Shown: positions 47,102-56,318 of the stretch, one piece after another
How positions within the stretch are numbered: the first letter of the stretch is position 1
Layout: each line of letters starts with the position of its first letter
From: Micromonospora sp. C28SCA-DRY-2
Lineage (GTDB): Bacteria > Actinomycetota > Actinomycetes > Mycobacteriales > Micromonosporaceae
Length of the DNA stretch: 64,000 nt
NCBI RefSeq assembly: GCF_030519475.1
Contig: NZ_JAUMKD010000002.1
Location: 1-64,000, forward strand
Direction: 5' to 3'
Notes under the pieces: model-generated
Told to the model about the DNA's origin: nothing
The model's database searches: none
The model's input: only the letters and a program-made list of their open reading frames with translations
Translations under genes and position numbers: made by a program

Positions 47102-47136
47102 GTGGGCGACGGACGAGTCGACCTGTACGCCGGATT
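47102..47136. repeat. attL, 35-bp core repeat
   Basis: Identical to 56284-56318. It contains GCGACGGACGAGTCGACC, the 3' strand of the RNase P RNA P1 helix, and therefore looks like the displaced end of the original rnpB gene. Confidence 0.85.
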
Positions 47137-47187
47137 AAGATCACTGCACCCGGGCTGACTAGGGGCCGAGCCCGGCGACAGCCGCTG

Positions 47188-47207
47188 CAGGCCGTCGCCA
47201 GGCCGTC
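47188..47207 (+). repeat. Two CAGGCCGTC arm-type repeats beside attL
   Basis: Copies at 47188-47196 and 47199-47207, 11 bp apart. The same nonamer is repeated at the other end of the element in the same orientation. Confidence 0.6.
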
Positions 47208-47254
47208 AGGGTGTCACAAGACGTCGGGTACAGCCATCGCAACGCCCGAACGAG

Positions 47255-53099: not shown

Positions 53100-55474
53100 A
53101 GAGAGAACGCCTCGGTGAGATAGCCGCGCTGCCTAAGGTCCCTGATACGCGACCGCTGCTTGTCATCCCCGCCTTCAGTGGGGGGAATGCGTTCGAGAGG
53201 AAGGATCACGACTATCTGATCATGCGGTTGACGCAGGCGTCGTTCGTCCAAATAGACGGCAAGATCTCGCATTCTTTCAGCATCGAGGAAAGCGTTGAAC
53301 TCGTCCAGTGCGATGAGTCGGTTCGCTGCCCCGAGCTCGTCTCGCTCCAACTGTGCCAGCTGAGCATGGGTGTAAGCAAAAGCTTGTTGACCACTGGAGA
53401 AGCCCGAAAGAGGTCTACTCATCTCCTCGCCCTCGGCGGTCCAGTGGACCCTCATATCGCGCCAGTCCAACCACAGATCGTCTGCATTCTCGAACAGGGA
53501 CTGCCGAAGAAGAGGGTCATTGAACCAATCCCGAACCTCACTAGCCAACCATACCCGCGCCGCTCTGTCCCAAGGAGTAGGGGCGGCCGACATGCTGGAA
53601 GAACGCCCAATTTCGCCGTAGAGACGGCCTAGCGCCGCGCCGATTCCTTGGATAGCGGCGTATTGCTGTTGAAGCTTGTCACGCGCTTGCTCTAGGCGGC
53701 CAGAGAGGGCATCGAGTTGGATCGCCTGTTGAAACACGGTTGCCCGCTGCAGTGCGGAGACCTCAGGCAAGGCAGCCCGCAGCCACGCGTGGGCGTCGTC
53801 TTGCGTGAGCAGCTCGACCACTTGAGCGATGCGCGACTTGCGGTCTTGGAGCACCCTGTCTGCTCGCTCCGCTGCCTGAACCGCTTGCACCTGTTGCCTC
53901 GTCAACTGATCAAGTTCGGCGCGCGCCTGCTCACGCCTGCCACGCACGCGTGCAACCTCGACCTCCGCCTGCCTGCATAGGCGTAGGAGTTCTGCGGCTA
54001 AGGCGTCCTCCGTCATGCCGCCCCCCAAAACCTCACGCGCATGTTCTAGGCGGGCATGAGCAGCTTGAACCGAGCGGCTTCTTTGATCAAGCTCATTACG
54101 GGCCTTGATCAATTCGTCGATGGTCTTGGCGGTTTGAGCTGGCAGTGATTCAGATGCGTCCTTAAGCCGCTTCTCGGCACGGGAGAAGTTTGCTTGCGCC
54201 TGTTCAACCTCCGCGAGCTTCGCGGATGCTTGTACTACCGCAGCGATCCGCGAGCGGAGCAGATCGATGTCGGCCTCCAACTGTTGCGCATCTCCAGACG
54301 GGGTCCGATCCCTTAGCTTTGCGGCCTGTCTGAGGCATGCATCCCGCAAGGCGGAGACGCTCCAACTGGGAGCGCCCTCTTCCCCCTCAAGGAGCGTTGT
54401 TTGCCCGAGTTCGTGCCGCTCTGCGTCGGATAGCCTTTCGGCCAAATCTTCTAGAACTGACACGAGCATGGGTGCTGCGTGCACCTGGGGGCGGCGCTCC
54501 AGCAACTCCTTCAACCGTCGGCTAAGCTCGCTCTGGGTAGCTACGATCTGCTCGCTGTTCGGCTCCACTTCAGCTGCTGTAGTGAGCCGCTCCAACTCGT
54601 TCGTAGCCTGGCGCAGCGCCTTATCGGTTCGGACAAGAAATTTTCTTGCATTCTCGAACTCGCGCTCTGCCTGCTCATTCAAATGTTGACGGCTACTTGC
54701 GCGAGTGATTTGATCATCGAGTCGCTCGGTCTTTGCCTCGAGATCGTCAAGCTCTTCCTTAAGCCGGTCAAGCTTCTCCTGCATCTCAGGGCCCTGCCCT
54801 CGAACCTGATCGAGGCGATCCAGCACTGATGTAGCGCGGTCCAATACTTCCATACGCTGGCGGCGATCGCTTAGCTCGTCGGTCAACAGCTTGCTCACTT
54901 TTGCAAAGTCCTCCGCCGCCTTCATTTCTGTCGGCAATTGCGAAGGTAGACTCTGCAAGACAAGCTTTTGGACTTCGTCTATCGCGAAATCGATGTCGCT
55001 CTGCCGGCGCTCGCCTGAACCCTCTAGCCAGTCGAAAATGTGGCGACGAGATGCCTCGACCCTATTTGCCAACACCTTTAGAGGCGTCTCGGCGGCGATG
55101 ATGTGGTGAACGCTGAACAGCGAGCGGATTGCTATGTAGTTGACAGTCTTGCCATCTACCTCTATTCGGCCCAGACGATCCTCCAACGGCCGAGGATCCA
55201 ACGGCCAGTCGGATGGATCCAGTCGCCATTCAATCGTTCTAGCGTGCTGCAATCCCGTAACCGTAACCCGCGCCTTTACAAGTTGTTCGCGGAAGCTACG
55301 CCAATCCTGATCATTTTCGGCAAATGGTTGGTCGCCCGCGCATAGGCGCAGCAGCTTGATCGCCGCAGTCTTGCCAATCCCGTTGTACCCCTCAATCTTA
55401 CACAACGGAATGTCGGGAATCTCATCGATGATGCGAAGCCCTCGGCGAGACTGGGCTTCGATTCTAATCTGCAC
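53096..55474 (-). CDS. SMC/RecN-like coiled-coil ATPase
   Basis: 792 residues. Walker A is at the N-terminus (IEGYNGIGKTAAIKLL, about residues 27-42); a long coiled coil runs from about 190 to 600. The C-terminal ATPase half has the ABC signature PLSGFSSGQQAFAYTHAQL and Walker B RLIALDEFNAFLDAER with its D-loop. This is the head-coil-head layout of SMC-like ATPases in defence systems (Lamassu, Wadjet-like and ABC-three-component systems), smaller than Smc and without the RecN insert. The GTG at 55474 overlaps the upstream small gene by 11 nt. Confidence 0.87.
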   Translation of the reverse strand: MQIRIEAQSRRGLRIIDEIPDIPLCKIEGYNGIGKTAAIKLLRLCAGDQPFAENDQDWRSFREQLVKARVTVTGLQHARTIEWRLDPSDWPLDPRPLEDRLGRIEVDGKTVNYIAIRSLFSVHHIIAAETPLKVLANRVEASRRHIFDWLEGSGERRQSDIDFAIDEVQKLVLQSLPSQLPTEMKAAEDFAKVSKLLTDELSDRRQRMEVLDRATSVLDRLDQVRGQGPEMQEKLDRLKEELDDLEAKTERLDDQITRASSRQHLNEQAEREFENARKFLVRTDKALRQATNELERLTTAAEVEPNSEQIVATQSELSRRLKELLERRPQVHAAPMLVSVLEDLAERLSDAERHELGQTTLLEGEEGAPSWSVSALRDACLRQAAKLRDRTPSGDAQQLEADIDLLRSRIAAVVQASAKLAEVEQAQANFSRAEKRLKDASESLPAQTAKTIDELIKARNELDQRSRSVQAAHARLEHAREVLGGGMTEDALAAELLRLCRQAEVEVARVRGRREQARAELDQLTRQQVQAVQAAERADRVLQDRKSRIAQVVELLTQDDAHAWLRAALPEVSALQRATVFQQAIQLDALSGRLEQARDKLQQQYAAIQGIGAALGRLYGEIGRSSSMSAAPTPWDRAARVWLASEVRDWFNDPLLRQSLFENADDLWLDWRDMRVHWTAEGEEMSRPLSGFSSGQQAFAYTHAQLAQLERDELGAANRLIALDEFNAFLDAERMRDLAVYLDERRLRQPHDQIVVILPLERIPPTEGGDDKQRSRIRDLRQRGYLTEAFSL

Positions 55475-55781
55475 TCTGTATGAGCCTTTCCGCCACGGCC
55501 TGAAGGTCGAATGAGTCTTCAGTGAGCAGCCTCAAAAGATCGAGGTCAACGATGCTCGCCACTCGGTCGACATCACCACTCTCGCCGTCCACGGACTCAG
55601 AGGCGCCCGTAATGTCGCTTATTGCTTGAAGGACCTGCTTGCCCCGGCTGACCACAGGCACACTCCTCCCGTTGCGGCGACCAACCTTGTCATTTTTATC
55701 CTGTTTGGAGCTTACGATCAAGATGCCATTCGATCCACGCATCGGGTTCGACGATGCCTTCGTAGCGTTTGCCGAAACCAC
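55464..55781 (-). CDS. Small unknown protein, first gene of the ATPase operon
   Basis: About 105 residues from the GTG at 55781, or 92 from the ATG at 55742. Basic N-terminal half (SSKQDKNDKVGRRNGRS), then a short acidic helix-rich part (SVDGESGDVDRVASIVDLDL ... LRLLTEDSFDLQAVAERLIQ). It overlaps the ATPase gene by 11 nt. A small middle component beside an ABC ATPase is typical of ABC-three-component systems, but I cannot assign it to a named class. Confidence 0.6.
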   Translation of the reverse strand: MVSANATKASSNPMRGSNGILIVSSKQDKNDKVGRRNGRSVPVVSRGKQVLQAISDITGASESVDGESGDVDRVASIVDLDLLRLLTEDSFDLQAVAERLIQSAD

Positions 55782-56283
55782 CTTTACAAGATCAAGGCAC
55801 CGCGCTCCGCGCGGTGCGGGGCGGCAAACCCGGCCGGCGGCAAGCCGCCCCGGCCGCCTGCGGCGCCGGGGCGGTGAGCCACCGACAGCCGCCTGGACAC
55901 CGCCCCCACGGCGAGAGGAACCAGCCTCAGCGATGCCGTGACGGAAGCCTGCGGGGCCGCTCTGGTCGGATGGTCGGGGCTCCGCCTGTCGCGCCAGTCC
56001 AACACCGGGACTGGCTTGCCACTGGGTCACCGGGTCGCGGCATCAGCTCCACCGCCAGGACGTGCCCGGCGTCCACGACAGCCGGCGGCACAGCAGCAGA
56101 GCCCACACCCACCGAAAGGCCCCATAACGAAGGGAGGGCGTGGGCCGGATCCGAGGTGCACTGAGCCGACGCAGGCCGTCTCAGGCCGTGGCCAGGCCGT
56201 CAAACGCCACCCAACGATGACCAAGGCCAACCAACGGCACCAGATAAACGACCAGCTCAGAGCCTTGATCAGGTCTCTGAGCT
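55782..56283. other. 500-bp non-coding end of the element
   Basis: GC-rich at its left end with no supported gene. It probably contains the promoter of the ATPase operon and, near 56172, three arm-type repeats. Otherwise I see nothing definite. Confidence 0.5.
56172..56201 (+). repeat. Three CAGGCCGTS arm-type repeats beside attR
   Basis: CAGGCCGTC at 56172-56180, CAGGCCGTG at 56182-56190 and CAGGCCGTC at 56193-56201, spaced 10 and 11 bp. They match the pair next to attL. Confidence 0.6.
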
Positions 56284-56318
56284 GTGGGCGACGGACGAGT
56301 CGACCTGTACGCCGGATT
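56284..56318. repeat. attR, 35-bp core repeat inside rnpB
   Basis: Identical to 47102-47136. It covers the last 31 nt of rnpB plus 4 nt beyond, so integration rebuilt the RNA end. Confidence 0.85.

Follow-up and report, generated by a model that had tools for sequence, protein, structure and literature searches.

The actinomycete integrative and conjugative elements (AICEs) pMLP1 and pMR2 of Micromonospora use tRNA genes as their integration sites. More generally, the available part of PMC3218068 places the vast majority of AICEs with a tyrosine recombinase at the 3' ends of tRNA genes, which agrees with the premise of the original prediction for the locus described here that tRNA genes are the usual targets. 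In tRNA and tmRNA islands of the Islander/TIGER class, the target gene is restored on insertion and a displaced fragment of it marks the far end of the island (PMC4383910, available part). An island with these same properties lies at 47.1-56.3 kb of a 64,000-nt stretch of Micromonospora sp. C28SCA-DRY-2 (contig NZ_JAUMKD010000002.1, positions 1 to 64,000; hereafter the window), where the target is instead rnpB, the gene for RNase P RNA. The island is very probably a decayed AICE that was inserted by a tyrosine integrase at the 3' end of rnpB via an attP core.

The integration target, rnpB (56292-56706, minus strand), is a complete class A RNase P RNA gene that matches the full RF00010 model (1-367) with 276 bits, and it is the only full-length RNase P RNA match in the 6.65-Mb genome. 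A direct repeat identical in 35 of 35 nt is present at 47102-47136 (distal) and 56284-56318 (proximal), both on the minus strand and spaced 9182 nt apart. The proximal copy takes in the final 27 nt of rnpB plus the 8 nt that follow the gene, and contains the 18-nt 3' strand of helix P1, GGTCGACTCGTCCGTCGC, 14 nt of which lie in the Rfam gene and 4 beyond it. All 18 nt are paired in the predicted rnpB fold. The G+C content between the repeats is 0.611, against 0.748 for the remainder of the window. The direct repeats, their overlap with the gene end and the lower-G+C block, all of which had been proposed from the letters of the window, are thus borne out, and the rebuilding of the target RNA together with its P1 3' strand, likewise proposed, is supported. 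The proposed integrase remnant also proved to be real: a tyrosine integrase pseudogene at 48218-49271 (minus strand), toward the distal repeat, is 94% identical to the intact integrase of locus L077 over residues 44-239 and 241-393, read in two frames, with the first 43 residues lacking a match and a single frameshift. A search of the window for RepSA or a translocase gave no match, only the integrase being matched, and the island is therefore called a decayed relative of the AICEs and not an AICE.

The site was surveyed across the genus, taken in the GTDB sense as Micromonospora including Salinispora, using stretches of as much as 20 kb that follow rnpB in 120 genomes, drawn evenly from about 160. 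Together with the window these give 121 loci, or 114 once the 7 with less than 3 kb are dropped. A 36-nt tile that spans the end of rnpB and continues for a further 10 nt was found again downstream on the same strand (at most 6 mismatches, within 19.3 kb or the available stretch) in 38 of the 121 loci, the window included, and in 24 of the 121 at no more than 2 mismatches. For 11 further 36-nt rnpB tiles, and for the tail in reverse complement, the count of loci with a downstream copy was 0 of 121 in each case; it is therefore the 3' end of rnpB that is duplicated, on the same strand. A search of other genomes for islands at rnpB 3' ends, as suggested in the original prediction, shows that the window is no isolated case: a distal tail copy is present in 39 of the 114 loci (window included), as is an integrase of the window's family (39/114), and two or more GACG[C/G]CCTG repeats occur in the first 300 nt past rnpB in 52 of the 114, against 15 of 2280 random 300-nt windows. 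At least one of these three marks is carried by 65 of the 114 loci. Of the 41 loci compared that have a distal copy, 19 share the nucleotide at which the proximal and distal copies begin to match, 27 nt from the end of rnpB; the median exact repeat is 38 nt. The genes that follow rnpB in many relatives are an RNB-family gene, panB, nadE and glnA (putative names), at distances that vary widely, the RNB-family gene beginning anywhere from 3.4 kb to beyond the examined stretch. The rnpB 3' end is thus supported as a hotspot that conjugative-type elements of one family have used repeatedly.

Thirteen intact integrases of the family are 395-413 aa in length, start with M[GA]HVEDRW and are 76-97% identical to the first of them. 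One genome per GTDB species was scanned with the L077 integrase as reference, and the best 80 of 517 related loci were inspected for an rnpB tail (at most 8 mismatches in 32 nt) within 4 kb after the integrase. The tail follows the integrase in 17 of the 20 loci at 62% identity or above, in 9 of these 17 at 62-91 nt after the aligned integrase. Below 60% identity it is found in 1 of 60 loci, 4 of which had less than 2 kb to inspect, the sole case being L263 from Pseudonocardia with 8 mismatches. Genera with tail-linked integrases include Micromonospora, Actinoplanes, Asanoa, Pseudosporangium, Jidongwangia, Winogradskya, Catellatospora and Dactylosporangium. On a phylogenetic tree, 17 of the 18 tail-linked integrases fall into one Micromonosporaceae branch of 24 rows (support 100/99), L263 lies outside this branch, and the tail-linkage label undergoes 5 changes, against 16.3 in shuffles. 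This supports an integrase lineage that is tied to the 3' end of rnpB. For integrases at about 50% identity, a Streptomyces-like rnpB tail was sought and gave no separate match.

The 3' end of a glnA-like gene adjoins 15 of the 60 integrases below 60% identity (15 of the best 80), and glnA is apparently a protein-gene target for the same integrase superfamily. Ten of the glnA-adjoining loci are from Streptomyces (L238, L239, L245, L254, L266, L267, L270, L274, L276 and L281), and their integrases end 112-139 nt ahead of the glnA 3' end. The glnA-associated integrases of Streptomyces and its relatives resemble those at rnpB in sequence (about 50-56% identity) and in the short gap between gene and target, but are flanked by the 3' end of a glnA-like gene in place of rnpB.

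Full-length elements at rnpB are present in relatives of the window. The 15.4-kb island of L047 encodes a GntR and a GntR-UTRA regulator, a glycosyltransferase, an FtsK/SpoIIIE translocase (FtsK_SpoIIIE, 8.2e-9), RepSA of the pSAM2 type (2.1e-97) and, last, the integrase, whose gene lies about 0.1 kb before the distal tail. The backbone of GntR, FtsK, RepSA and integrase is found in 13 of 141 loci, consisting of the 121 and 20 from other genera of the family that were picked for large contigs and long matches and not at random; FtsK, RepSA and integrase are found in 6 more, 3 of these six from other genera. By their predicted gene content, the full-length rnpB elements are AICEs. They share RepSA, an FtsK/TraB-like translocase, GntR, a tyrosine integrase and insertion at the 3' end of an RNA gene with the pSAM2-type AICEs, and differ from these in targeting rnpB. 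Direct repeats of GACG[C/G]CCTG are present at both ends of the elements, mostly 3-4 on the rnpB side and 2 on the far side in the loci displayed, and are probably arm-type integrase sites. The window retains three such arm-like repeats at the left end (56172-56201, minus strand; CAGGCCGT on the plus strand) and two at the right end (47188-47207, minus strand), with coordinates set by eye. L047 also carries, at 1435-4659, a cargo gene for a 1075-aa LRR-Roc-COR GTPase.

Empty and occupied sites were compared among relatives. In the unoccupied locus L136 (genome G030) a flank stands directly after rnpB, and in the occupied locus L057 (G034) this flank begins right after the distal tail copy, 3.5 kb away, with 96.4% identity over 2031 nt; the distal tail of L057 has 6 mismatches in 36 nt. 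In L095 (G052) the L136 flank begins about 17.7 kb away and 1.9 kb past the distal tail copy (96.6% over 1545 nt), and no tail is present at the junction with this flank. The pair L100 and L035 is comparable but less clear-cut, with 89.9% identity over 1873 nt and again no tail at the second junction. An unoccupied site is thus seen among relatives (L136 against L057), and for the window's own flank no such site was found beside rnpB. Taken together, the repeat, the integrase lineage tied to the gene end, the arm-like repeats at both ends and the empty and occupied relatives argue for integration at the 3' end of rnpB, as had been predicted.

A mechanism can be proposed in which the tyrosine integrase would recombine a short attP core with the matching 3' end of rnpB. 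Recognition by the integrase would fall on the part of the gene that specifies the P1 3' strand; the element would carry its own copy of this part, so that the ribozyme would stay whole. The end of the element may also supply the hairpin that ends the rnpB transcript. The copy in the window is probably no longer self-mobile, its integrase being broken and RepSA and Tra being missing, and would have retained a cargo of five genes.

In the window, a terminator-like hairpin, identified by folding and by compensatory changes, lies at 56252-56285 (minus strand), immediately 3' of rnpB on the island side. A strong hairpin (z < -2) directly after the tail is found in 94 of 121 loci, against 5 of 114 control windows. 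In an alignment of 68 of these 94 loci, 94.5% of the cells of a 10-bp stem are paired, a figure that benefits from the selection of strongly folding loci. In 54 cells both sides of the stem have changed, against 14.6 in shuffles (0 of 500 as high) and at most 7 in slid versions. Two of the five measures show no excess over shuffles, namely the number of stem pairs with both partners altered (5, with 3.9 in shuffles, 134 of 500 of which reach it) and that of further pair types (11, with 9.6 in shuffles, reached by 106 of 500). The hairpin probably terminates the rnpB transcript. Sorted by sequence, the hairpins form three types, which are accompanied by arm repeats in 43 of 62 (type A), 6 of 12 (type B) and 1 of 14 loci (type C), and 26 loci fit none of the three. 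Owing to this association, types A and B look element-borne and type C looks native. A broader reading is advanced tentatively, in which RNase P RNA joins tRNA and tmRNA as an RNA-gene landing site and has its own integrase lineage across Micromonosporaceae, and in which the elements have also taken over 3'-end formation of the ribozyme, bringing both the P1 3' strand and their own covarying terminator hairpin to replace the native one at every insertion.

Several observations weigh against the reading of the island as a decayed AICE inserted at rnpB. None of the three marks is present in 49 of the 114 loci, and 22 of the 41 matches between proximal and distal copies begin at nucleotides other than the common one. 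The integrases of L206, L213 and L218, at 69.5-81% identity, have no rnpB tail within 4 kb, and the two ends of L035 and L049 bear differing repeat variants, as judged by eye. Neither arm repeats nor integrase accompany 14 of the 62 type A and 6 of the 12 type B hairpins, and 2 of the 14 type C loci have an integrase; the hairpin is therefore not strictly bound to the element. Lastly, the flank at 46994-47101, which had been expected to adjoin an empty rnpB site, was found beside rnpB in none of the stretches examined from the 120 relatives, and these hold no exact empty site for the window.

The window's own empty site was not found because this flank is itself accessory. It belongs to a block with an mraY paralogue (45890-46993, plus strand), which adjoins the distal repeat as a flank and not as an ancestral neighbour. 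The paralogue is present downstream of rnpB in 0 of the 120 stretches, and is found at 93-97% identity elsewhere in the chromosome in 11 of 43 other selected genomes. The segment 45690-47082 is found in G087 at 95%, away from rnpB. Conserved chromosome genes start again at about 41.6 kb in the window, and the region at 41.7-47.1 kb is therefore a further accessory block, one without a repeat. Besides the mraY paralogue, open reading frames (ORFs) at 41700-47082 read as LysR-type, RibD/DHFR-like and short putative lipoprotein genes, and this block was not seen in the stretches examined downstream of rnpB in the 120 relatives. In G087 (L155), a sequence that by eye resembles a tRNA 3' end comes after the block with the mraY paralogue.

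The cargo of the island consists of two genes on the plus strand facing three on the minus strand. The former encode a Ser/Thr protein kinase (49333-50655; PF00069, 2.7e-24) and an N6/N4 DNA methyltransferase (50677-52074; PF01555, 4.3e-9; MTase_II, 4.5e-45). The latter encode a 337-aa protein (52086-53099), whose confident model (mean pLDDT, a per-residue confidence score, of 91) has no similar solved fold, the best PDB match being only E 0.2; a 792-aa SMC/Rad50-like ATPase (53096-55474; AAA_21, 7.2e-6, just under the cut-off; LmuB, 3.7e-10); and a small ORF (55464-55742) of 92 aa if the ATG at 55742 is the start. Between the integrase pseudogene and the distal repeat lies an ORF of 269 aa (47255-48064, minus strand) that matches no family and has a 53% identical stretch in L041. 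The left end contains a module shared with other rnpB elements (55784-56010, approximate limits set by eye). Apart from the L041 match and matches to this module, the window's cargo was found in none of the other rnpB islands among the 141 loci.

From its gene types alone, the five-gene cargo looks like a candidate anti-phage system. The PADLOC matches are partial only, and an LmuA-LmuB pair was not found, LmuB being weak and LmuA absent among the matches listed (the best 25 of 31 families for the kinase and 25 of 27 for the methyltransferase). The cargo resembles Lamassu and other ABC-ATPase defence systems in having an SMC-like ATPase (the LmuB match of 3.7e-10), a small ORF and a second protein, but differs in that the matches to Lamassu are weak and partial, the neighbours are a kinase and a methyltransferase, and no solved fold resembles that of the 337-aa partner. 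Among the matches listed, at least 24 of 56 ATPase homologues co-occur with a homologue of the 337-aa protein (72 of the latter listed), a lower bound since the pairing was judged by the longest contig of each cluster. An earlier pairing figure of 24 out of 24 was dropped, those 24 having been hand-picked; the 24 of 56 is the recount over all.

In G069 the same five-gene cassette lies between tRNA-Tyr and a GntR gene, with the four larger genes 67-76% identical. In G049 the ATPase gene, the 337-aa gene and the end of the methyltransferase gene are located after what is apparently the same tRNA-Tyr sequence (L299, by eye). The rnpB elements and the tRNA-Tyr stretches of both genomes have in common a left-end module of about 260 nt, and the ATPase gene is present in just 3 of 160 genus genomes, the window's own included. 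These findings would fit a composite island: an element at tRNA-Tyr would have donated the cargo, and the ends and the integrase remnant would descend from an rnpB element. Such an exchange, which is compatible with a decayed AICE at rnpB, is possible but rather unlikely: the cassette is placed alike relative to the left end in both settings, and a common cargo slot therefore explains the data equally well. The region beside the left end of the elements is read here as such a slot, on the basis of these sequence comparisons.

It is very improbable that the tail copies arose by duplication or homologous recombination in the absence of a site-specific enzyme, with islands gathering at rnpB by chance. 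Accretion is evident at this site, since L038, L055, L093 and L127 each have two distal tail copies, and the 41.7-47.1 kb block of the window is accessory yet has no repeat. However, the recurrence of the 3' tail alone among the rnpB tiles, the 5' boundary common to 19 of the 41 loci, the tie between the integrase lineage and the tail, and the arm repeats at both ends all speak against an origin of this kind. A prophage or phage satellite using rnpB as attB can hardly be upheld either, for although the integrase is of a phage type (an intact relative matches PHROG 1 at 1e-59), the rnpB tail has no match among 50,697 phage records, IMG/VR holds only 11 integrase relatives at 28-40% identity, L047, the sole relative scanned gene by gene, has RepSA and an FtsK-like translocase, and the window yielded no phage structural family in the ORFs scanned and no PHROG family in the three proteins scanned.

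Other matches to RNase P RNA were set apart from the islands. A 42-nt match on a linear plasmid of Streptomyces globisporus (NZ_CP108665.1; L305), considered as a plasmid relative of the element, is part of a whole rnpB and not an attachment-site copy; the gene on this 1.05-Mb plasmid is complete and scores 292 bits. A 31-nt match in G000 (contig C19) has no Rfam match and was taken as chance. A second, diverged RNase P RNA gene lies within dense arrays of tRNA genes, tens of them per 5 kb, in L302 (G109; 2249-2613, minus strand, 254 bits) and L303 (G120; 2394-2753, plus strand, 267 bits), and a similar tRNA array in L304 (G045) has a partial rnpB match below the Rfam cut-off.

The original prediction also held that rnpB is rarely reported as a target, and the openly licensed PMC literature yielded no account of integration at rnpB, island databases lying outside this coverage. 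Where the related papers examined mention RNase P RNA, they do so for its use as a marker or promoter, as an annotation or within the title of a reference, and the terms 'rnpB' and 'RNase P' are absent from the main texts of PMC12884075 and PMC12424338. As far as seen within that openly licensed literature, what is new is the target and its integrase lineage and not the kind of element. Surveys restricted to tRNA and tmRNA genes would file rnpB islands as intergenic. The integrase clade has a site choice that is directly testable, and its members may serve as tools for site-specific integration in antibiotic producers such as Micromonospora, Actinoplanes and their relatives. The finding raises the question of how an element can replace the terminator of RNase P RNA harmlessly, and adds the gene for an essential ribozyme to the RNA genes that are used as landing sites by mobile elements.

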